Shown: piece after piece, positions 21,603 to 38,145 of the stretch | How positions within the stretch are numbered: position 1 is the first letter of the stretch | Layout of the letters: each line of letters opens with the position of its first letter | Assembly (NCBI RefSeq): GCF_014651635.1 | Contig: NZ_BMXG01000007.1 | Coordinates: forward strand, 1 to 64,000 | From: Cerasicoccus arenae | Lineage (GTDB): Bacteria > Verrucomicrobiota > Verrucomicrobiia > Opitutales > Cerasicoccaceae | Direction of reading: 5' to 3' | Length of the DNA stretch: 64,000 bases | Position numbers and translations under genes: made by a program | Notes under the pieces: model-generated | What the model saw: the letters and a program-made list of their open reading frames with translations, nothing else | The model's database searches: none | What the model was told of the DNA's origin: nothing

Positions 21603-24600
21603 CTAGGCCCTGTGGGCAATCCGAAGCTTTTGGCGACGCTTCCATTCAAATAGGATAAGGCCACTGATCATTACGCCACCGATAAAATAGGTGCTCGGTT
21701 CGGGAACAGGAATCGGAACAATTTCACCGGTGGACAGAATTTGTGCGGTATAGAGGCCAGTGGGAAGCCCTGGAGGATTACTGAAGAATATTCGTGAGAG
21801 TTGATCATTGGTAACCCCGTTGACCGTTGAGCCGATGAAAAATTGATCGGTGCCACCACCGCCGTATGAGCCGTTCCAGCCTGAAATGACAAGGCTCCCA
21901 GTGCCACTCCAAGTGGTGCTCGCACTATCGGCGAACTTGACGATGCTGCCGTCCGCGGGATTGCTACCCAAGTCAATATTAACACTCGAATTATTGGTCA
22001 GAGTTAGTGAGCCCAAGACTTCATTGGAGTCATTCAGGTTCCAAGTCGGTGTGGAAATCCCGCTTAGATTATCCCCAAACTCCATCTTTGTATTGTTCTC
22101 GATCTGATTGCTTGTGGAGTTGAGCAGTGTGCCACCGTTTATAACGATTTTCGTGGCCTGCAAATTATTCAGATTGCTACCAATGGTTGTTTGTCCATCG
22201 CCCGTTTTGGTAATGACACCTAGATTCTCAATGTTCGTGTTGGCGGTAGCGGCGGTGATCACTGAATTGCCTGAAGTTACATTTAGCGTAATTTTCGGGG
22301 CGTTTGCGATATCCATCCCAGCGGTAAAAGTTAGGTTGCCGAGCACTTCCAATGTGCCCGCAGTGGCAGCGCTGCCACCATTGAAGGAGGAGTTGGCACC
22401 GAAAACGGTTGGGCCCTGCGCTACGGTCATTTTACCGCTGTTGCTAAGGGTAATGTCGCCATTGAGATTAACCGATCCCGCCGTTTCGGTAGCTACATTG
22501 AAATTTGAGCCATTTCCATTTACGGTTAGTGCGTCGCCATTAGTCAGGTTAAATGTGCTCGCTGCTGCGCCAGCTGAAAGCTGAACATTGGCGGTAGCTC
22601 CATTGCTTACCAAAATGCTCGAGCTAGAGCCTGCAGTAGTGAAGTTTGTGCTACCGGTGAAGTTCGTCGTGCCGCCACTTATCACAATACTGGAACCGCT
22701 GTCCGTAAGGATATTGCCGCCAACGTTAAAGTTCGTTGTGCCTGCCGTTTGATTGAAATTACCGTCAAAGGTAAGGTTGCCTCCTGAGAGCATTGTTGCG
22801 AGGCCACCGGTGTTGCTCATTGTGGAGCCGTCTCCGATTTCAATACTGCCGCCTGAAGTGGCATTGAGTGTGCCCCCTGCATTGACAGTGACGTTTGCAT
22901 CGCCAAAGACGGATGTGCCGGCTCCATTGCCGCCCACTAGCATGTTGCCGCCGACTGTGCTGGTGACTACACCGCTGTTAACGACAAGGTTATTAAAGGT
23001 ATTGGCACCAGTTAGGCTGAGAGTGCCAGCGCCTTCCTTCGTCAGTTGGTTGTTTCCACTGATCACGCCGCTTAGCGTGCCAGTAATGCCGCTTTCTACG
23101 GTTAATGCGGCATTGGTTGTTAGATTGCCAGCGCCCGATAGAGTCAGGTTATTGCTATCGATGTTACCAATAGTGAATCCATTGTTGATTGAGTAGGCTG
23201 GGCTGAGAGTCCGAGCTGCGCCAGTGGCACCGATACGGCCACCATTGAAGCTAATGGCTCCAGTTCCGAGTGCCGTGTTATTCCCGATCTCAATAGTGCC
23301 ATCGTTTAGGACAGTACCGCCAGTATAGCTACTCGAGGCATTGAATTGCGTCGCACCACTCCCATTTTTAGTCAGTGAACCAGAACCGGTGATTTGCGAG
23401 TTAAAAACAGTGCGGCCCATTCCGGTAATGGTGACAGCATTGCCATTGGTCGCGAACTGGCTGAGCGTGCCACCATTGACGCCAAATGTTAAACCAGTGG
23501 TTCCCGTCGAGTTATTGGATATCAGCAGATTGTCTGCGAGCGACACGTTTACTCGTCTATTATTTCGGTTACCGATGACATGCTCACCGTCACCAGTAAC
23601 AGTTAAATAGGCTGTGCTACTACCAGTCTGGTCAAAAATGAGAGTGCGTGTATTGCCATTATTGGACTGAAATCCATAATCTTTCCCTCCTGTACTCGCC
23701 AGCACCATTGTGCCAACCGTTCGATTACCGTTTAGGTCCACCGTACGGTCGCCGTTAACGGCATCGGCAAACAAGACCTTGGTCCCAGCCGAGTTATCGG
23801 GGGGGGGATCGTTATCAACCCAGTTGTTTGGCCGACTATTTCGCCACTGCTGCCCATTGGGACCATCCCATTCATGGAAGTCAGCTAGCGAGGGTACTAT
23901 TTCATAAACGCCACCGCCCAAACTGATCATCTGAGCGCTACCATAACCGGCAAAGTTTATGTTGGAGAGTGCACCAGGGCCACTTCCAAAACTGCCAATG
24001 TTATTATCTAGCACTTGCAAGCGAGTGCCACCGTTGCCGGTGAAATTGCCCGCCCAGTTGTCGATGGTCAGGGTGCCACCTGAACGGGTCATGTCGGCAA
24101 AAGTTAAATAGCCTCCAGCTGCGCCCATGAAATCAATTGTAGAGTTACTACTTAGCGTCATGACGTCCATGCGGTCGGCAAAGCCATTCGTGGCGAATGT
24201 GCCGCCGCCAAGTGTTAGGTCCATGTTATCAGCAAAAGCATTATTGGCCCCAAGGGTAGCCTTGCCAGCGTTGACGCTGAGCGCACCCGTGAAAGTGTTG
24301 CTTCCAGTGAATGCCATGTTACCCGTGCCAGTTTTGATGAAGTTCCCTCCATCCTGAATGCTGCCTGAAAATGTGGTGTTGGTGTTGTCACCTCCAGCGG
24401 TGAGGGTTGCACCTCGTGTGCGGATGGTTCCACCACCTGCCAGTGAGCCAACGGTGTCGCTGTAAGCGGCGTTGGCCATGTCCAGTGTCGCGCCTGACTG
24501 CACAATAATAGCACTATTGTCATTGATCCGGTTGCCAGCGTCTCCAAACAACAGTGTAGCGCCGTTGTTAACTTGAGTGAAGCCGCTTTGGGAGCCTGAA

Positions 24601-26828
24601 GGGCCTTTAAATACGGTCGTGCCCCCCCCCGTGATCACCACGTTCTGACCCGCACCATTGAGACCTCCTGAACCATCTAGTAACAGTTGGGCTCCAGTGG
24701 CGGCACCAATGTAGGTCGTGCCACCGCTTAGCGTTACTGGGGCATTGATTTCGTTATTACCGCTAGAGCTCCAAAGTGCGGCTTTGCCCACTACGCCAGT
24801 CCCAGCGATATTAAATGACTCCGCACCACTAATGTCGAGGCCGCCCGTCATTTCCAAAGTTGCTCCACTCGCGACGGTTGTACCGTTGGCTGTTGTACCG
24901 AGTGCGTTGGAATGTTCGATGAGTAGCGTACCAGAGCTTACGGTGGTGGCACCTGTGTAAGTGTTGTTGCCACCTAGAATACCAGTGCCGGTGCCTGTCT
25001 TATTGAGACTTGTGCCAGAGCCAGAAACAACCCCACTTAAGTCAGTTGTAGCGCCGTTGGCTGCATAGAGCGCGATGCTATTACCGTTGCCAGTGACCGT
25101 GCTAGTAACATCAAGGACTCCGGACTCACTACCAATGGTGCTATTGCCCGCCAAAGTGACAGGGCCGGCAAATACATTGGAACCACTTGAGTTGGTTAGA
25201 GCCCCAGTGGAAGCGTTACCATTACCGTTGATCGTAAGCGCTTCGCCTGTGGGTGTCGTTATGTTATTGGACAGTGCTAGGGACGCGCCGCTCTGCACAA
25301 TTGTGTCGTTACCCGAATTACCCAAGGCGTTATTGTTTGCTATGCGGAGGCGACCTGCTTGTACAGTAGTTGTGCCCGTATAAGTATTATTACCAGCAAA
25401 GACGGTAGTTCCATTGCCTTCGACTGTTAGTACTCCACTACCACTGATTACGCCATTAACGTTTGTGAGGCCTGTTGTTTCAAAGGTTAGCGCATTGGCA
25501 TTGGCGTTGATGTTTCCATTCAGCGTTAGCGTCTGGTCGACCAGATTTTGGACGTCTAGGGCATTATTGGCGGAAATGTTATTATTGATGGTATGGTCGG
25601 CATTGCCATTGGGGTTGTTGAGCACGTTTAGATAGCTCTTACCGTTACCATTAGTATCGAAGATGAGGCTTTGCGAAGCCAAAGGACTCAGTGTGTAGCT
25701 GGACGTGCCGGAAAATGTGGCGCTGTTGATCGTCCGATTCCCTCCATTGATATTAACGGTCTGAGCGACTTTCGTGTCAGGAAAGGCGTCAGAGAAAATT
25801 ACATGGCTATAGGTGCTGGGAACCGTGTCTTGGTCCCAGTTAACACCGGTTCCCCATAGTTCATTGCCATCCTCGTTATCCCAATAAAAGGAATTCGCAC
25901 CACCGGTGGCAGATACTTGCAGGTTACGGATTTCATAGACTTCAACCGAACCACCTGTGCTTCCAGAAAAACCGATGCGCAGTTGATCGGGGCGGGCTCC
26001 GGTCAAGGTTGTTTGGAACAGTTCAGTTAGGGATCCATCGTAGCCGTTCTGCATCCATACGGTAAGCTCGTTACTCGAGCTGAGCTCCATTTCAAAGTGC
26101 CTGTAATCTCCTGCATCTTGATCTGGCCGGGTAGGGGAGTTTATAAAGTCCATACTAAACCCCGGCCCAAAAGTGTCTGTGAGGGAGGGATTCGTGCCAT
26201 CGCCTGTTCCTTCTAAATAACCGTAGCCAGTGGTGCCACTACCAGAATCGCGAACAGCGACTTCGTTAGGTAAAAAACCAGGTCCGCCAACGCGGCCTTC
26301 AGTCGGATTGGAGTAGTTACCGTAAACATCAAGGCCAACTCCCACGTAAGCGCCTGCAAGGCCATCAATGCCCGTTTGTTGTGCATAGCCCAAAGACCCG
26401 CCAGTAGCACCGGGGGCAAATGCATCGCCAGCATCCCACATGAAGACCGTTATGCCGTCTGCTGGGTCTGTACCCGGTTTCCAAAAAGCGAAATCGAAAC
26501 CAACACGGATTGTGTTGCTGACTGAGGGGATGGCTGTGTCTAACGCGATGGCGTTAGACTGGTTTCCGGTGGTGGTGGCTAGGCGAAGCCAGCCGTTACC
26601 ATTGATGTCGATTTGTGGAGCACCAAATTCGGGGTCGGCTGCATCTGGGGTGGCTAATGCCGTTAATCGGGCGGGGGGGGAGGTGCCTGCTGCGCCAGTC
26701 TGAAATTCCCAGCCAGGCGCTGAATCGTAACGGAACGACTCAGTGTACACCAACTGAGCACTCACAGTGGCCGACAAAGCGACCAGTGAGACAACCACTG
26801 GTAACATAAATTTTCCATTCCCTGCCAT
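21603..26828 (-). CDS. Giant PEP-CTERM surface protein with autotransporter-associated beta-strand repeats
   Basis: 1741 residues. A signal peptide (about 1-24, ending A-T-V-S-A) precedes an L-type-lectin-like beta-sandwich of about 280 residues, with W-L-R-L, a D-G-I-T-V-F-M-W segment and R-H-F-E-M-E. Then more than a thousand residues rich in Gly, Asn, Thr and Ser contain repeats of the type G-G-N-N-T-Y-T-G-A-T-T-V..G-T-L, known as autotransporter-associated beta-strand (PATR-like) repeats, expected to form a beta-helix. The C terminus is a PEP-CTERM sorting signal: V-P-E-P-S from residue 1708, one helix, then W-K-R-R, to be cut by an exosortase. No outer-membrane barrel is present. C9 runs at 23799 and 24622 (9 bases each) and C8 at 26673 encode Pro or Gly pairs. 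Confidence 0.88.
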   Translation of the reverse strand: MAGNGKFMLPVVVSLVALSATVSAQLVYTESFRYDSAPGWEFQTGAAGTSPPARLTALATPDAADPEFGAPQIDINGNGWLRLATTTGNQSNAIALDTAIPSVSNTIRVGFDFAFWKPGTDPADGITVFMWDAGDAFAPGATGGSLGYAQQTGIDGLAGAYVGVGLDVYGNYSNPTEGRVGGPGFLPNEVAVRDSGSGTTGYGYLEGTGDGTNPSLTDTFGPGFSMDFINSPTRPDQDAGDYRHFEMELSSSNELTVWMQNGYDGSLTELFQTTLTGARPDQLRIGFSGSTGGSVEVYEIRNLQVSATGGANSFYWDNEDGNELWGTGVNWDQDTVPSTYSHVIFSDAFPDTKVAQTVNINGGNRTINSATFSGTSSYTLSPLASQSLIFDTNGNGKSYLNVLNNPNGNADHTINNNISANNALDVQNLVDQTLTLNGNINANANALTFETTGLTNVNGVISGSGVLTVEGNGTTVFAGNNTYTGTTTVQAGRLRIANNNALGNSGNDTIVQSGASLALSNNITTPTGEALTINGNGNASTGALTNSSGSNVFAGPVTLAGNSTIGSESGVLDVTSTVTGNGNSIALYAANGATTDLSGVVSGSGTSLNKTGTGTGILGGNNTYTGATTVSSGTLLIEHSNALGTTANGTTVASGATLEMTGGLDISGAESFNIAGTGVVGKAALWSSSGNNEINAPVTLSGGTTYIGAATGAQLLLDGSGGLNGAGQNVVITGGGTTVFKGPSGSQSGFTQVNNGATLLFGDAGNRINDNSAIIVQSGATLDMANAAYSDTVGSLAGGGTIRTRGATLTAGGDNTNTTFSGSIQDGGNFIKTGTGNMAFTGSNTFTGALSVNAGKATLGANNAFADNMDLTLGGGTFATNGFADRMDVMTLSSNSTIDFMGAAGGYLTFADMTRSGGTLTIDNWAGNFTGNGGTRLQVLDNNIGSFGSGPGALSNINFAGYGSAQMISLGGGVYEIVPSLADFHEWDGPNGQQWRNSRPNNWVDNDPPPDNSAGTKVLFADAVNGDRTVDLNGNRTVGTMVLASTGGKDYGFQSNNGNTRTLIFDQTGSSTAYLTVTGDGEHVIGNRNNRRVNVSLADNLLISNNSTGTTGLTFGVNGGTLSQFATNGNAVTITGMGRTVFNSQITGSGSLTKNGSGATQFNASSSYTGGTVLNDGTIEIGNNTALGTGAISFNGGRIGATGAARTLSPAYSINNGFTIGNIDSNNLTLSGAGNLTTNAALTVESGITGTLSGVISGNNQLTKEGAGTLSLTGANTFNNLVVNSGVVTSTVGGNMLVGGNGAGTSVFGDANVTVNAGGTLNATSGGSIEIGDGSTMSNTGGLATMLSGGNLTFDGNFNQTAGTTNFNVGGNILTDSGSSIVISGGTTNFTGSTNFTTAGSSSSILVSNGATANVQLSAGAAASTFNLTNGDALTVNGNGSNFNVATETAGSVNLNGDITLSNSGKMTVAQGPTVFGANSSFNGGSAATAGTLEVLGNLTFTAGMDIANAPKITLNVTSGNSVITAATANTNIENLGVITKTGDGQTTIGSNLNNLQATKIVINGGTLLNSTSNQIENNTKMEFGDNLSGISTPTWNLNDSNEVLGSLTLTNNSSVNIDLGSNPADGSIVKFADSASTTWSGTGSLVISGWNGSYGGGGTDQFFIGSTVNGVTNDQLSRIFFSNPPGLPTGLYTAQILSTGEIVPIPVPEPSTYFIGGVMISGLILFEWKRRQKLRIAHRA

Positions 26829-28197: not shown

Positions 28198-29823
28198 ATG
28201 CCTAAACAAAAAATCGTCTATCTCGTTGCAAATGGCGACCTTCGTTTATCCGCCAATCAGAACTGCTGGGAAGAGCAGGCTAAAATGGAGAAAGAGCTCT
28301 CAAAGGTTCTGTTAACTTTAGGTGGAAAAATAAAGCGCGCGCACAAATATAAACCAACTGAAAAGCATGGTTTTATCTCGAGTCAGCGTGAAGGTATGGA
28401 TGTTTTTGCAACGATTGATCGATACGCACCGTTGATTATCGCTGAAGCTGTTTGGCAATACTCGCACCATCTCCTGGCCGGTCTGATCTCGCACCGTGGG
28501 CCGATTCTTACCGTCGCGAATTGGAGTGGCACTTGGCCAGGGCTCGTCGGCATGCTCAATCTTAACGGTTCACTCACAAAGGCTGGTGTGAAATACTCAA
28601 CGCTCTGGAGCGAAAATTTCAGCAAGGACAAATCATTCCATGAGAACCTCAAGACATGGCTAGAAAAGGGAGAAGTTATCCATGCCACCCGCCACGTTAA
28701 AAAATACAGTGGTCGTAAAACACCGAATCGCTTGAAGATTTTGTCTCGCAAAATGGTCACTGATCTCGACCGGGAAAAGGTGATCATGGGGGTTTTCGAC
28801 GAAGGTTGCATGGGCATGTACAACGCCGTGATTCCTGACGAACTGCTTTTCCCTCTAAGTGTGTATAAAGAACAGCTAAGCCAGAGTGCTCTATATGCAG
28901 AAATGCAAACCGTGACCGCAGCGGAAGCCGACGAAATTTATAAGTTCCTTGTTGATCGTGGGTTCAACTTTCACTTTGGTAAAAAAGAAGCAAAGGATCT
29001 CACTAAGTCGCAGGTTTTGCAGCAATGCAAGATGTACATCGCAGCTTGCCGCATTGGCGATCGCTTCGGATGCGAGGCCATCGGCATTCAGTATCAGCAA
29101 GGTTTAAAGGATCTTTGCCCCGCATCTGACTTAGTCGAAGGCATGCTCAATAGTTCGGATCGCCCACCGGTCAAAAATGCCCAGGGGAAAATTATTAAAA
29201 AAGGTGAAACCTATCCGCACTTTAACGAAGTAGACGAATGTTGCGGACTCGATGCGATCTTAACCAAACGTGTTCATCGTGCCTTAAAGCAACCAACGGA
29301 AACCACACTGCACGATTTGCGCTGGGGCGACTGGGATCAATCAGGTACTACTAAAGATTACGTTTGGGTGTTCCTGATCAGCGGATCGGCACCCGTCGAG
29401 CATCACGTTGGCGGATGGAAAGGCAGCCATGGCTATCGCCAACCAGCGATGTATTTCCCCCTCGGTGGCAGTACCTTACACGGTATTGCCAAACCGGGTG
29501 AGATTGTCTGGAGCCGTATCTTCATCGAAGACGACAAACTCAAAATGGACATCGGTCGTGCGAAGGTCATCGAACTGCCAGAAGAGGAAACTCAGCGCCG
29601 TCTAGACGAAACAACGCCACAATGGCCCATCATGCATGCAGTGACCTACGGGGTCACCCGTGATCAGATGATGGCTCGCCATAAAGCAAACCACATCAAC
29701 GTAGCGTACGCTAAGACCGCCGAGCAGGCAGATAACTGTTTATACGCCAAAGCCGACCTTGCAGCTCAGCTAGGCATTGAAGTCTTCATCTGCGGGAGCA
29801 CGGCTAAGAAGAAGACGCTGTAG
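28198..29823 (+). CDS. L-fucose/L-arabinose isomerase-like protein
   Basis: 541 residues. The overall pattern resembles the fucose-isomerase superfamily. An N-terminal Rossmann-like part ends in [25 protein letters not shown] segment and N-E-V-D-E-C-C-G could supply metal-binding acids, and a C-terminal beta-domain has P-L-G-G-S-T-L-H-G and P-G-E-I-V-W-S-R. Members interconvert aldoses and ketoses using a divalent metal; the real substrate here is unknown. Cytoplasmic, no signal peptide. The gene stands alone, with a strong terminator just after it. The assignment rests on motif resemblance only. Confidence 0.6.
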
Positions 29824-32381: not shown

Positions 32382-33317
32382 TCAATGAAGCGCCGCCGCA
32401 GCTGCCCCCATTGCAATTACCAACTTGCGGCGAGTAGGCACGTAACAACGGCCAGAGAAAACGTCACTTTGCTTACGTTCGATTGCCCCAAGGATGCCGC
32501 CATAAACGCGACTCATCAGTCTGACGCAGAAGCGCGAGCCGTCAGCATCAAGGTAGGGAAGACCGATTTCGCCGGAACAATAATAATCGCGGGCCCGGTC
32601 GATTTGAAAACGAGTAAACTTTCGCCATCGCGGGTCGGCTGCATTGGGGGTGGACAGGAAATCACGGTTTAGGCCAAACTCGGCAAGCTCCTCACGCGGT
32701 AGATAAATACGGTTGCGGGTAAAATCCTCGGCAACATCGCGCAGGATATTCGTTAGTTGCATTGCAATGCCCATTTCGATGGCACGGGGAACGCCTGCGA
32801 GTTCCTTGAGGCCAAAAATCCGACTCATGATCAGCCCCACGACTGAGGCCACATGGTAGCAATATAGTTCCAGTTCGGCAAAGTCAACGAACTCGACTGG
32901 CTTCCGATCCCAGCAACAGCCCTCCATCAGGTCGACGTAAAAGCTGATCGGCACCGCGTATTGACGCGTCACTTCCGCAAAGGCCGGTGCGAACGGTAGC
33001 TTACTTTCTCCTGCAAGAATGCTGTCCAGTTCGGCTTGCAGCGTTGCAAGGTCGGGTTGCTGATCGGGCGGCGTTTCGTCGATAACATCGTCCACCCAGC
33101 GACAAAAGGCGTAGATCGCATACGCCGCGCTTTTTTTCTCCGCAGGCAGTGGAAACGAGGCGAAGAAGAAGCTGGTAGCGTGTTCCCGAGTAGATTCCTT
33201 ACATACAGCAAGTGACGCCGCCAACTCAGGCTTACGGCGCCAACCGGATTCTGGTTGGGGCGTTTCCCAGTTAGTCGGTAGTTTACAGGTAATGGCGTTG
33301 CCTAATGGTTTGGGCAT
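32382..33317 (-). CDS. Phytoene/squalene synthase family enzyme
   Basis: 311 residues. Head-to-head condensation of two prenyl diphosphates, using two Asp-rich motifs for magnesium: D-D-V-I-D (76-80) and N-I-L-R-D-V-A-E-D (191-199). R-N-R-I-Y-L-P-R-E-E-L and the F-Y-V-D-L-M-E-G segment are also family features. The product could be presqualene/squalene for hopanoids (HpnC/HpnD type) or phytoene for carotenoids; no desaturase or second Hpn gene is nearby to decide. Seven C stand directly before the ATG (33318-33324 on the minus strand), where a spacer to a ribosome site would be. Lies 97 bases after the E1/KAS fusion. Confidence 0.88.
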   Translation of the reverse strand: MPKPLGNAITCKLPTNWETPQPESGWRRKPELAASLAVCKESTREHATSFFFASFPLPAEKKSAAYAIYAFCRWVDDVIDETPPDQQPDLATLQAELDSILAGESKLPFAPAFAEVTRQYAVPISFYVDLMEGCCWDRKPVEFVDFAELELYCYHVASVVGLIMSRIFGLKELAGVPRAIEMGIAMQLTNILRDVAEDFTRNRIYLPREELAEFGLNRDFLSTPNAADPRWRKFTRFQIDRARDYYCSGEIGLPYLDADGSRFCVRLMSRVYGGILGAIERKQSDVFSGRCYVPTRRKLVIAMGAAAAALH

Positions 33318-33414: not shown

Positions 33415-36400
33415 TCAACTATGCAGCAGCGCAGCACCAAAGGTGAAGCCGCCGCCGAAGGCGACGAGGGCGATCTTTCCGCCGTTATCAGGGAGCTTGT
33501 CCCAGTTTTCGGCGAGGCAGATCGGGATGCTGCACGAGGATGTGTTGCCGTAAAGGTGTATATTCTCCCAAATCTTGGCGTGGTCCAAACGCATCCGTTT
33601 GCCGAGCGCACGGAGGATACGCTGGTTGGCCTGATGCGGGATGATCACATCGAGATCGTTGAGCTCCAAATTCTGCTTCGCACAAGCTTCGCGCAGGGTT
33701 GTAGCCATACGGCTAACTGCGTCGTGGAATACTTGCTTGCCGTGCATGGCGATGGCTTCGCTGCTACCCATGAGCGGCACACGGAGGTATTCACCGGATT
33801 CACCACGGCCAGATATGACCGGAGACTCCATTCGCAGGCCGGGCTCGTTTCCGTTACTATCTGATGCGTCGGCTTTGATCAGGGTGGCAGTGGCACCGTC
33901 GCCAAAGAGGATCGCGGTATTGTAATCCTCGGGGTCGATCACACGGGAAAGCATTTCCGCAGTGATTAACAACACGCGGCCTTTCGGGCGCGTTTGCAAG
34001 AAATCGTGGGCGGCCTGTAGGCCGTAAAGATAACCGCTGCACGCCGCACTGATATCGTAGCCTGGGCACTCGCGTTCGGGTGCCAATTGGTGCAGGACGC
34101 GCATTGCAAGTGAGGGCGTGCCCTTGTCAGGCGTGGTTGTGGCGCAAATGACGAGATCGACCTGATCGATCGTATCTTCGATCCCGGCAAAAAGTTTTTC
34201 CACGGCTTCAGACGCCAAGCCCAGCATTGTCTGATCGGAAGTTGCCCAATTACGGGACTCAATGCCAGTCATCTTAATGATCTCGGCGCTGTCTTTGTCG
34301 GGGAAATTAAAACGCTCTAGCAGTTGCTCGTTAGTGACCTTCTCGTGGCCATGCGCCGCGGCAATTGCGGTCAATCGGATCGTAGCGTTCGCGACTGGCT
34401 TTACGCTAAGTTCGGTGGCAGGTGACTGCTTCGACTCAAGAAGAATCGGACGGCGCTTAATAATCTGCTGTGAGGCCGATTTAGCACTGCTTTCCGTGCG
34501 GCGAAGTTCAATCAAGGGCTCACCAATGCGGACAGATTCACCCTCGGCAACAATGACCTTTTCGACAACCGCGTGGCATGGAGAAAAAAGTTCAGCGGCG
34601 GCTTTTTCGGCTTCAAAAATAGCAATAACTTGATCAGGGGTAACGGCTTCGCCTTCCTGCACAAGCCATTCAACCAGATTGATGGTATCGTCAGAGGCAC
34701 CTACGCCCATGGCAGTAATCGTCTCAATTTCGCCGTCACCATCGTCGTCGCTTTGCCATGATATCTTCAGGCCAATCATCTCGGCGGCGGCCGTGACAAT
34801 TTTCTCCGCAGACGGCAGCATCGCTAATTGATTGGCGAGATTGAAAGGAGCAAAAGCGTCGGGCCGTGTGACTCGGCGAATCTGAACGGGTTCGCCCGCA
34901 GCCTCAGCAATTTGAGACGCGACTTCTGCGCCAACGCCCGCAAATCGATTGTCTTCATGGGTAACGATCAAGCGCTTAGTGCGTCTAACGGATGCCAACA
35001 CAGCGGCTTCATCCCATGGGGAAATCGAACGTAGATCAATGACTTCCGCTGAAACGCCAAGGTCCTCGAGGAGAGTAGCGGATTCTTCGCAGATCGGAAC
35101 AGTGTTGCCCCAACCAACGAGCGTCACGTCGCTACCTTCACGGACTGTGCGCGATCTGGCAACCGGGACCCAGTGCTTGGCAATGTCGGGCGAAGTAACC
35201 CGCGTCGAGTCGTTGATCAGATTCTTCGGGTAAAGGAAAACGGTAGGGCGGGGGGAGCGGAGCGCGGCATTAAGCAGGCCAGCCGCATCAGCAGCCGTTG
35301 AAGGCATAACGATGTCCACGCCTGGCGAATGCGCGAGCATGGCCTCCATTGTTTGCGTATGGAACGGGCCAGTGCCTCCACGATAGCCACCGCAGGAAAC
35401 CATGAGCACGACAGGGCAGCGCCATTCGCCAGCAGTTCGCCAGAACATTGACGCAAGCTCGTTATGGTAAAGGTTTTGAACGAGTGGCAGAAAGTCTGCG
35501 AACTGGATAAATGCCACCGGGCGTGCACCTGCAAGCGCTTGCCCAATCGTGAGCCCCATGATGCTACATTCAGCCAGTGCGGAGTTAACCACACGGCCAG
35601 GAAATTGGGTGGAGAGCCCTTTGCAAACGCCAAATACGTCGCCTTTAGGGTCTTCGATATCTTCGCCAAGGAGCTTGACGGTTGAGTCACGCTGAAGGGC
35701 ATCGAGTAACGAATCACGTATTGCGTCCCGCATGGTGACTGCTTGAGTGGTCACTTGGCCACGATATTCATCGCGCTGCAAATAATCCGCGTGGAGCGGC
35801 TCACGCGACTCCAAACAGAGCTTCGGCATAGCAGCAGTGCGTGCCAATTCAGCCTCGGCACGGGCGTGATCTTTCGCCTCGGACTCGATGGCCAGTAGGT
35901 CGCTGTCGGCGATTCCAAGATCGATCAGTTGCTCGCGGAGGTGAGGGATCGGATCGCGGAAACGTGCGTTTTCTGCGAGGTCTTCAGCCGTGCGGTAAAG
36001 AGTCTGGTCGTCTGCGTTAGAATGGCTACCAAGGCGCTCAACGCGCATCAGGGCAATAGCCGGACCACGTGTATGGCGAATGTGCTTAGTTAACTTGCCG
36101 AAGAGCTCGCGCGAAGCCAGCACATCGACACCATCAAACCGGTGGATCGGTAGGCCAAGGAATTCCTCGGCCTCGCCATTAGGGAGGGAAAAGAAAGTTT
36201 TGCCGAGTGTCGTTGTTGACAGGGCATATCCGTTGTTTTGCACTAGGAACAAAACGGGCAAGTGGGAACGTACGGCTTCACCGACAGCTTCAAAGAAATC
36301 ACCTTGTTGGACACCGCCATCGCCAACGGAGGCGTAGACAAGTGGTGCGTCCGGCTGATCCTTAATCACACTCGCTGCACCCACGGCTGGGAGCAGATTG

Positions 36401-36816
36401 TTGCCGACGGAAACGGGCATGCTCATCATGTTCAGCGCACGGCTGGAGTGCATGACGTTCATCTGCCGACCTTGCGAGGTCGAGGCATCGTTCCCGAACA
36501 GGGCGTCAAAAAAGGCCCGGGGGGGGAGGCCGCGCGCTAGCATGAGCGCACGGTCACGATAATGACACGCCAACCAGTCGGCGGGGGTCAAAAAATCCGC
36601 CAAAGCGGCGCTGGATTCGTGTCCAGCGCCGGCAATGTGGAAATGTCCTTCACCGCGGGCGATGATGGCTCGCTCGACCGCTTCGATTTCGCGGGCGAGC
36701 ACTAATGTACGGTACAGTTCTTTGGCTCCGAGAGCGGATTCAGCAGAAGATGCTGATTCCGCTTCGGTTTCGGATGTTCCGGTGGTCTGATGGATGTTTC
36801 CGGGAAGTAAACTCAT
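33415..36816 (-). CDS. Fusion: 2-oxoacid dehydrogenase E1-alpha / E1-beta / lipoyl domain / beta-ketoacyl-ACP synthase III
   Basis: One uninterrupted 1133-residue chain. E1-alpha (about 30-340) has the thiamine-diphosphate motif G-D-G (166-168) to N-N (194-195). E1-beta (about 358-685) has G-E-D-I and R-V-V-N-S-A-L-A-E. A lipoyl domain (about 697-772) has Lys738 in F-E-A-E-K-A-A-A-E-L as the attachment site. The C-terminal 325 residues are a KAS III (FabH-type): Cys926 in A-A-C-S-G-Y, His1061 in I-P-H-Q-A-N and Asn1091 in Y-G-N-T-S-S complete the triad. No E2 acyltransferase core (HxxxDG) or E3 is in the chain. I infer direct use of acyl-lipoyl groups to start fatty acid synthesis. Fifteen bases after the RhlE gene. 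Confidence 0.92.
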   Translation of the reverse strand: MSLLPGNIHQTTGTSETEAESASSAESALGAKELYRTLVLAREIEAVERAIIARGEGHFHIAGAGHESSAALADFLTPADWLACHYRDRALMLARGLPPRAFFDALFGNDASTSQGRQMNVMHSSRALNMMSMPVSVGNNLLPAVGAASVIKDQPDAPLVYASVGDGGVQQGDFFEAVGEAVRSHLPVLFLVQNNGYALSTTTLGKTFFSLPNGEAEEFLGLPIHRFDGVDVLASRELFGKLTKHIRHTRGPAIALMRVERLGSHSNADDQTLYRTAEDLAENARFRDPIPHLREQLIDLGIADSDLLAIESEAKDHARAEAELARTAAMPKLCLESREPLHADYLQRDEYRGQVTTQAVTMRDAIRDSLLDALQRDSTVKLLGEDIEDPKGDVFGVCKGLSTQFPGRVVNSALAECSIMGLTIGQALAGARPVAFIQFADFLPLVQNLYHNELASMFWRTAGEWRCPVVLMVSCGGYRGGTGPFHTQTMEAMLAHSPGVDIVMPSTAADAAGLLNAALRSPRPTVFLYPKNLINDSTRVTSPDIAKHWVPVARSRTVREGSDVTLVGWGNTVPICEESATLLEDLGVSAEVIDLRSISPWDEAAVLASVRRTKRLIVTHEDNRFAGVGAEVASQIAEAAGEPVQIRRVTRPDAFAPFNLANQLAMLPSAEKIVTAAAEMIGLKISWQSDDDGDGEIETITAMGVGASDDTINLVEWLVQEGEAVTPDQVIAIFEAEKAAAELFSPCHAVVEKVIVAEGESVRIGEPLIELRRTESSAKSASQQIIKRRPILLESKQSPATELSVKPVANATIRLTAIAAAHGHEKVTNEQLLERFNFPDKDSAEIIKMTGIESRNWATSDQTMLGLASEAVEKLFAGIEDTIDQVDLVICATTTPDKGTPSLAMRVLHQLAPERECPGYDISAACSGYLYGLQAAHDFLQTRPKGRVLLITAEMLSRVIDPEDYNTAILFGDGATATLIKADASDSNGNEPGLRMESPVISGRGESGEYLRVPLMGSSEAIAMHGKQVFHDAVSRMATTLREACAKQNLELNDLDVIIPHQANQRILRALGKRMRLDHAKIWENIHLYGNTSSCSIPICLAENWDKLPDNGGKIALVAFGGGFTFGAALLHS

Positions 36817-36831
36817 TGTGACGTGAGCCTA

Positions 36832-38145
36832 CTACCGAACTGATTGCCGGGGCCCCCGTCGAGCGTTAAAATTGCGCTTACCGCGTGGTGGTCCACCGCG
36901 TGAACCGCCACGTTGGCCACCGCCACCGCGCTGGAAACGCTTACCCTGACCGGATTTGCCGCCGGAGTTACGACGTGCAACCAAGCTTTCTTGGTGGAAC
37001 GCATGTTCGTGGTGAACCGCAATTTCCTGTTTTAGAAGGCGTTCTACTGCGCGTAATTCATTGAAGTCATCACCGGTACAGAAGGACAGTGCCACACCTT
37101 CAGCGCCACCGCGAGCGGTGCGGCCAATGCGGTGGACGTAGGCTTCTGGTTCGTCTGGCAGGTCGAAGTTAATAACCAATGTGATGTTCTTCACGTCAAT
37201 GCCGCGGGCGGCAACGTCAGTTGCAACAAGCACATTCGGGCGTCCACGACGGAAGTTATCCAGCGCGCGCTGACGTGCGTTTTGGCTCTTGTTGCCGTGA
37301 ATCGCATCGGCACGGATTCCGCCTTGGCCGAGTGCCTTCGCAATACGGTCTGCTCCGTGCTTGGTGCGGCTGAAGATCAGTGTGAGGTTGTCGCCTTCAC
37401 GCTCTTTCTGCTCGTTGAGCAGGGTTTCTAGAAGGGTGAACTTGTCATCGCGCTGAACGAAACACATGCGGTGATCAATGGCGTCGGCCGTTGGGCGTTC
37501 CGGTGCGATACGTACTTCAACTGGGTTGGAGAGAATTTCCTCAGCCAAGCGAGTGACAGTGTTTGAGAACGTAGCCGAGAAGAACAGCGACTGGCGCTCA
37601 CGGGGCAACTTCGATACGATACGACGGATGTCGTTGATGAAGCCCATGTCGAGCATGCGGTCGGCTTCGTCGAGGACGAAGTGCTCCACTGCATCGAACT
37701 CAAAGTGACCTTGTTCGTATAGGTCGAGCAAGCGACCAGGTGTTGCGATAAGGACATCGACTCCGCGCTTCATCGCACGAATCTGTGGACCCGCACTGAC
37801 GCCGCCGTAGATTAGAGCGGTATTAAGGCGTAAGTGCTTACCGTAATCGTCAAAACTCTTAGCAACCTGCACGGCCAGTTCACGAGTAGGGGTCAACACG
37901 AGGGCGCGCATGCGTCCCTTCATGAGGCGATGATTCTTCTCGTTTAAATGGTGCAGAATCGGCAGCGCGAATGCAGCGGTTTTACCAGTGCCAGTTTGAG
38001 CGGAGCCCAGTAGGTCACGGCCTTCCAGCAAATGTGGAATAGCTTGCGCTTGAATTGGCGAAGGCGTTACGTAGTTTTTATCGCGCAAAGCACGGTGAAG
38101 GGGCGCCGCCAATGGCAACGCCTCGAATGATTCAATTGAACTCAT
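36832..38145 (-). CDS. DEAD-box RNA helicase, RhlE type
   Basis: 437 residues with all helicase motifs: Q motif (T-P-S-P-I-Q), A-Q-T-G-T-G-K-T, P-T-R-E-L, D-E-A-D, S-A-T and H-R-I-G-R-T-A-R-G-G. The C-terminal tail (about 385-437) is rich in Arg and Gly, as in RhlE helicases that act on ribosome assembly or the degradosome. First gene of the series running to rnr. A 12-bp hairpin sits in its leader (38198-38234). Pairing of a DEAD-box helicase with RNase R in one locus fits RNA unwinding plus decay. Confidence 0.93.
   Translation of the reverse strand: MSSIESFEALPLAAPLHRALRDKNYVTPSPIQAQAIPHLLEGRDLLGSAQTGTGKTAAFALPILHHLNEKNHRLMKGRMRALVLTPTRELAVQVAKSFDDYGKHLRLNTALIYGGVSAGPQIRAMKRGVDVLIATPGRLLDLYEQGHFEFDAVEHFVLDEADRMLDMGFINDIRRIVSKLPRERQSLFFSATFSNTVTRLAEEILSNPVEVRIAPERPTADAIDHRMCFVQRDDKFTLLETLLNEQKEREGDNLTLIFSRTKHGADRIAKALGQGGIRADAIHGNKSQNARQRALDNFRRGRPNVLVATDVAARGIDVKNITLVINFDLPDEPEAYVHRIGRTARGGAEGVALSFCTGDDFNELRAVERLLKQEIAVHHEHAFHQESLVARRNSGGKSGQGKRFQRGGGGQRGGSRGGPPRGKRNFNARRGPRQSVR

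Follow-up and report, generated by a model that had tools for sequence, protein, structure and literature searches.

How does an acyl group leave a 2-oxo acid dehydrogenase whose acyltransferase domain has given way to a ketosynthase? The question is raised by a single gene in a 64,000-nucleotide stretch of the Cerasicoccus arenae genome (Verrucomicrobiota; positions 1 to 64,000 of contig NZ_BMXG01000007.1, hereafter the window), which encodes in one chain the alpha and beta parts of a dehydrogenase E1 component, a lipoyl domain and a beta-ketoacyl-acyl carrier protein (ACP) synthase III (KAS III). By the usual account, bacterial fatty-acid synthesis is primed from acyl-coenzyme A (acyl-CoA), and 2-oxo acid dehydrogenases give their acyl group to CoA by way of the E2 acyltransferase core. 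For this fusion we think it rather likely, judging from its sequence, that the acyl group is transferred directly from lipoyl group to KAS III without CoA, a 2-oxo acid and malonyl-ACP being turned into 3-oxoacyl-ACP on one polypeptide.

A first-pass annotation had described an intact four-domain frame without naming its strand, and both the open reading frame and the Pfam matches agree: a single minus-strand frame with an ATG start encodes 1133 amino acids, whilst the plus strand across the same positions is riddled with stop codons. All Pfam matches lie above the curated cut-offs (E1_dh at residues 36-332, Transket_pyr at 359-534, Transketolase_C at 556-671, Biotin_lipoyl at 710-771, ACP_syn_III at 920-986 and ACP_syn_III_C at 1045-1131), and the chain contains no Pfam match to the E2 core (2-oxoacid_dh, PF00198) or to an E3-binding domain. 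The parts of the gene, with thiamine diphosphate abbreviated to ThDP and the predicted local distance difference test to pLDDT, are as follows.

33415-36816, minus strand: whole fusion gene, 1133 amino acids, E1-alpha / E1-beta / lipoyl domain / KAS III
35821-36711, minus strand: E1-alpha domain, residues 36-332 (Pfam E1_dh, 7.5e-34; ThDP motif GDG..NN at residues 165-195)
34804-35742, minus strand: E1-beta domain, residues 359-671 (Pfam Transket_pyr and Transketolase_C; invariant Glu416 and His486)
34504-34689, minus strand: lipoyl domain, residues 710-771 (Pfam Biotin_lipoyl, 2.1e-10; Lys738 codon at 34603-34605)
34390-34497, minus strand: linker between lipoyl domain and KAS III, residues 774-809, mostly of low pLDDT
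33418-34389, minus strand: KAS III domain, residues 810-1133 (Pfam ACP_syn_III and ACP_syn_III_C)
34039-34041 (Cys926), 33634-33636 (His1061) and 33544-33546 (Asn1091), minus strand: KAS III catalytic codons

The numbering first given for GDG..NN, Lys738, Cys926, His1061 and Asn1091 proved correct in an alignment with 36 homologous fusions, and the three KAS III assignments also match on alignment to Escherichia coli FabH. An AlphaFold2 model built from a 35-row alignment has a pLDDT of 87 overall, with low values for residues 1-23 of the N-terminus, for 134-136 and for the stretch of linker at about 796-808; with pLDDT below 50 at 796-808 and block means of 38-68 over residues 771-810, the linker is probably flexible.

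We infer the following route from these parts, its catalytic steps and lipoylation as well as its substrate and product. Decarboxylation of a 2-oxo acid, which is most likely branched, by the fused ThDP-dependent E1 would leave Lys738 with a reductively acylated lipoyl group. On its probably flexible linker this arm would then carry the acyl group over to Cys926 in the C-terminal KAS III, where condensation with malonyl-ACP would give 3-oxoacyl-ACP and begin a fatty-acid chain. The KAS III would replace the E2 acyltransferase, acyl-CoA would never be formed, and a separate dihydrolipoamide dehydrogenase (E3) would reoxidise the lipoyl group. The lipoyl arm has roughly the length required to enter a tunnel made for pantetheine (about 14 against 18-20 Å), and since KAS III is a dimer and so is E1 (alpha-beta twofold), one homodimer could serve both.

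In the E1 and lipoyl parts, Gly165, Gly167, Asn195, His265, Glu416, His486 and Lys738 are invariant in all 37 aligned fusions, the ThDP motif reading GEG rather than GDG in four of them. Every fusion thus has the lysine of the Biotin_lipoyl domain, Lys738, which is the predicted lipoyl attachment site; lipoate synthase was found in nine of nine carriers tested. Residues 358-682 of the model superimpose on the Thermus branched-chain E1-beta (1um9_B) with a Z score of 44.2 and a root-mean-square deviation (rmsd) of 1.3 Å. By sequence, the E1-alpha part finds its best solved relative in the branched-chain E1-alpha of Thermus, at 140 bits; no other solved E1, not even the human branched-chain one or those of pyruvate type, exceeds 78 bits. 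The part also shows HSxxDD and GRQM, features shared by the branched-chain E1-alpha sequences in that alignment. A branched 2-oxo acid is therefore a likelier substrate than pyruvate, an assignment in which we have moderate confidence. Direct transfer from pyruvate (or 2-oxobutanoate), giving straight-chain primers without acetyl-CoA, would be compatible with the E1-beta part, which resembles the E1-beta of pyruvate and of branched-chain enzymes to a similar degree and does not discriminate, and with the NCBIfam E1 matches, which are named pyruvate dehydrogenase and all lie below cut-off; we nevertheless consider it unlikely, since the E1-alpha part is so much nearer the branched-chain enzyme, the Thr or Ser at KAS position 87 (below) points to larger primers, and acetyl priming in the carriers is already provided for by a pyruvate dehydrogenase together with a FabH.

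The KAS III part appears catalytically complete. Residues 810-1133 of the model superimpose on E. coli FabH with a Z score of 44.4 and an rmsd of 1.7 Å over 310 residues, a thiolase fold with a Cys-His-Asn triad, and Cys926, His1061 and Asn1091 are invariant in 37 of 37 fusions. A homologue without the catalytic cysteine, which the first-pass annotation had treated as a sign against its proposal, was not found among them, and the invariant catalytic residues rule out a dead KAS domain. The chain reaches the NCBIfam subfamily model PRK09352 (beta-ketoacyl-ACP synthase 3) with 268.5 bits against a cut-off of 249, and does not reach the narrower fabH model TIGR00747 (225 of 292 bits).

The CoA site of this domain has been lost in part. 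In FabH the adenine of CoA is sandwiched between Trp32 and Arg151 (PMC4606726). None of the 37 fusions keeps either residue (FabH numbering), whereas in a comparison set of 27 stand-alone KAS III, drawn from these genomes or related ones, 23 have Trp32 and all 27 have Arg151. In the pantetheine tunnel and on the ACP face, Asn247, Ile250, Phe304 and Arg249 are present in 37 of 37 fusions and Gly305 is also kept; Arg249 we take to be the ACP-docking arginine of FabH. Such a pattern is what one would look for in an enzyme that goes on taking malonyl-ACP as its second substrate but no longer receives the first on CoA; with the CoA-gripping part of the KAS III lost, fatty acids are probably started without acyl-CoA. 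Branched primers alone do not account for the loss of Arg151, because the five solved FabH that we aligned keep it, amongst them Bacillus subtilis FabHA, which takes branched acyl-CoA. At position 87 all fusions have Thr or Ser, where 18 of the 27 stand-alone KAS III have Phe; Phe87 goes with a preference for acetyl-CoA, Thr87 with longer primers (PMC3734052).

The position of the KAS III in the chain is that of an acyltransferase. In the E1 tree the sister group of the fusions consists of single-chain E1-alpha/E1-beta/lipoyl/E2 proteins from other families of the order, with the first three domains in the same order, and because these are the closest relatives the KAS III occupies the place of their E2; the tree and the Pfam matches together bear out the earlier statement that the E2 core is missing and a KAS III stands in its stead. 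Frames of 1000-1140 amino acids that align with E1-alpha/E1-beta occur in 22 other genomes of the order, and the 16 that were read continue from E1 and lipoyl domain into an E2-like domain, recognised by the E2 motif in 13 and by PF00198 for the one in genome G043. No genome among the 88 sampled from the order and family holds both the KAS III-ended and the E2-ended form. The E2-ended chains (for example L006:1366-4593, plus strand, and likewise L007-L021) measure about 1000-1100 amino acids and are found in many families of the order; unlike the fusion they end in an E2 acyltransferase core, in which the motif is DHRxxNG in most readable copies and the usual DHRxxDG in none.

The fusions form one side of a branch with a support of 100 (Shimodaira-Hasegawa-like approximate likelihood ratio test) both in the E1 tree, which included 16 single-chain E1-lipoyl-E2 proteins for comparison, and in the KAS tree, which included 26 stand-alone KAS III. 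Since both are quick trees, rooted at the midpoint and containing long branches, they make a single origin of the architecture likely but do not prove it; mixed phyla inside the fusion clade suggest horizontal transfer. The database search that the annotation had proposed found the same four-domain order in 36 of 388 Verrucomicrobiota genomes (16 genera in 10 families, two of the 36 matches being partial), and a scan of named genomes added two other phyla, with fusions in Spirochaetota (Spirochaetales), Candidatus Accumulibacter (Betaproteobacteria) and Cysteiniphilum and relatives (Gammaproteobacteria); this spread is a lower bound because the scan relied on two E1 motifs alone. Such a distribution rules out a chance fusion of neighbours in one genome, and the intact frames of 37 fusions, from mostly independent genomes, rule out an assembly or frame artefact.

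Which other enzymes could serve the lipoyl group was asked of the genomes. A PF00198 search of the window genome returned two E2 genes only, both away from the fusion: one of pyruvate dehydrogenase type (top model TIGR01349, 428 of 445 bits and so slightly under cut-off), and a sucB that exceeds its cut-off and belongs to a sucA-sucB-lpd operon; contig 5 carries a separate pair of E1-alpha and E1-beta. The separate E3 that had been called for at first annotation is encoded in the same operon by an lpd-like gene, assigned by operon and sequence rather than by a curated-model score. Cysteiniphilum has sucB and aceF (by NCBIfam) and Accumulibacter the same pair by operon, and a canonical stand-alone FabH accompanies the fusion in the carriers checked. 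Carriers G445 and G119 have one E2 only, of aceF type. In these two nearly complete genomes of family f49 it is the single E2-type acyltransferase found, and a 2-oxoglutarate dehydrogenase may therefore be missing there.

Several observations weigh against direct transfer and are taken together here. Arg36 is kept in 29 of 37 fusions and Asn247 is kept too, and although the adenine contacts are lost in sequence, CoA use is not thereby disproved; the retention of Asn247 could be due to the pantetheine arm of malonyl-ACP, which needs the same tunnel. With at least one other E2 in every carrier tested, this largely kept pantetheine path would also suit channelling with CoA, in which acyl-lipoyl would go to a separate E2 of pyruvate or 2-oxoglutarate type and the resulting acyl-CoA to the tethered KAS III, working as a FabH. 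We find this improbable, as the two adenine-sandwiching residues, which the canonical FabH of the same genomes keeps, are gone from every one of the 37 fusions, a tether from E1 through lipoyl domain to KAS III is of little use if the intermediate leaves the chain, and the fusion is without an E3-binding domain. From the census, carriers G453, G160 and G104 have aceF and a further E1/E2 cluster, its substrate unassigned, and genomes of family f1 without the fusion likewise have just two E2 proteins, so the lack of a third E2 does not go with the fusion in particular. The suggestion that carriers would lack a branched-chain E2 stands for the window genome, Cysteiniphilum, Accumulibacter, G445 and G119, and may not hold for the three with the extra cluster; the census shows only the lack of a dedicated branched-chain E2.

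The gene neighbourhoods belong to the same list. Neighbour clustering of 37 carriers and the window found no conserved operon with lipid genes and no neighbourhood that recurs across lineages, the fusion standing alone in most genomes; a sulfonolipid neighbourhood occurs in one genome only, and neither the window genome nor any other sampled Verrucomicrobiota genome with the fusion has a cysteate synthase. The one genome is that of Spirochaeta sp. UBA5339, where (L068:1640-11558) sulfate activation genes, a cysteate synthase (TIGR03844, 451 bits against a cut-off of 325), a serine-palmitoyltransferase-like enzyme, cysH and the fusion lie in a row on one strand. This row is likely a sulfonolipid cluster outside Bacteroidota, and its gene set would fit a sulfonolipid such as capnine. 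Capnine has an iso-branched chain, and the first enzyme of its synthesis prefers acyl-ACP over acyl-CoA (PMC9304779). Direct transfer might accordingly serve a specialised lipid or polyketide whose product differs by lineage, for example a sulfonolipid in this spirochaete; the patchy gene, seemingly exchanged between phyla, the L068 neighbours and the congeners of the window genome that live without the fusion are in keeping with this, but no neighbourhood with tailoring enzymes recurs around a gene that is mostly alone, and we give the idea very little credence. For the window genome a sulfonolipid role is rejected, as it has no cysteate synthase. Cysteate synthases above cut-off were also seen in two Verrucomicrobiota genomes without the fusion (genus f57/g173; G277 contig 97:112562-113767 and G294 contig 167:74331-75536). 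As for lipids, Coraliomargarita has branched fatty acids (iso-C14:0) and Cerasicoccaceae mainly C14:0 and C18:1 (PMC10288369).

Direct transfer to the KAS III can be set beside known systems. Like the branched-chain 2-oxo acid dehydrogenase complex, the fusion has the key residues of E1-alpha and E1-beta, a lipoyl domain with its lysine and a separate E3; unlike it, the fusion is one chain and has a KAS III instead of an E2 core and E3-binding domain. With FabH it shares the KAS III fold, the triad and Arg249, whereas it lacks Trp32 and Arg151, has Thr or Ser at 87 and is tethered to its own acyl-generating enzyme. Corynebacterial OdhA (8p5v), which unites a 2-oxoglutarate dehydrogenase E1 with an E2 succinyltransferase domain in one chain, is likewise an E1 fused to an acyl-accepting catalytic domain, but its domains run in the reverse order and its E1 is of another class. 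In quinocarcin and naphthyridinomycin assembly an E2-like acyltransferase loads a two-carbon unit from lipoyl onto ACP without CoA, whereas the fusion would load the acyl group onto a ketosynthase cysteine for immediate condensation. A literature search directed in part at this domain arrangement or at transfer from lipoyl to ACP, with thin coverage of subscription journals, found no paper describing the E1/lipoyl/KAS III architecture. If direct transfer holds, a ketosynthase in the place of E2 would break two rules together, that of priming from acyl-CoA and that of acyl transfer to CoA through E2, and the fusion would be a widespread, overlooked enzyme, a dehydrogenase that gives its acyl group to the cysteine of a ketosynthase rather than to CoA. 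It would explain branched primers in bacteria without a branched-chain E2, and the tight tether would free the choice of primer from the acyl-CoA pool; the route would be testable on one purified protein, and the module might be portable for branched lipid production.

At the locus itself, comparison with relatives shows where the fusion sits. Among the 88 genomes of the order and family, the full chain occurs in the window genome and in four genomes of another genus of the same family (G005, G007, G008 and G009; fusion identity 51-68%), and is absent from three congeners (G001-G003). In the window it fits exactly between two genes, with a gap of 15 bp from rhlE and one of 97 bp to the start of the gene that follows.

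36832-38145, minus strand: upstream neighbour, RhlE-type RNA helicase (NCBIfam), 15 bp before the fusion start, a housekeeping gene outside the pathway
32382-33317, minus strand: downstream neighbour, HpnD/phytoene-synthase family protein (NCBIfam HpnD, 1e-61, below cut-off)

In G001 and G002, the two congeners checked, the phytoene-synthase-like gene comes straight after the rhlE-type helicase gene, with no fusion between them; by gene order the fusion at this locus is a clean gain or loss. The phytoene-synthase-like gene occurs without the fusion in all three congeners, and a functional link between the two is not supported, as congeners keep that gene beside rhlE in the fusion's absence.

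Two further window genes were noted. A 541-residue protein at 28198-29823 (plus strand) has no NCBIfam match at 1e-15 and is phosphoenolpyruvate carboxykinase-like by eye only, and a 1741-residue protein at 21603-26828 (minus strand) carries many autotransporter-like repeats and a PEP-CTERM-like tail (PEPSTYFIGGVMISGLILFEWKRRQKLR).

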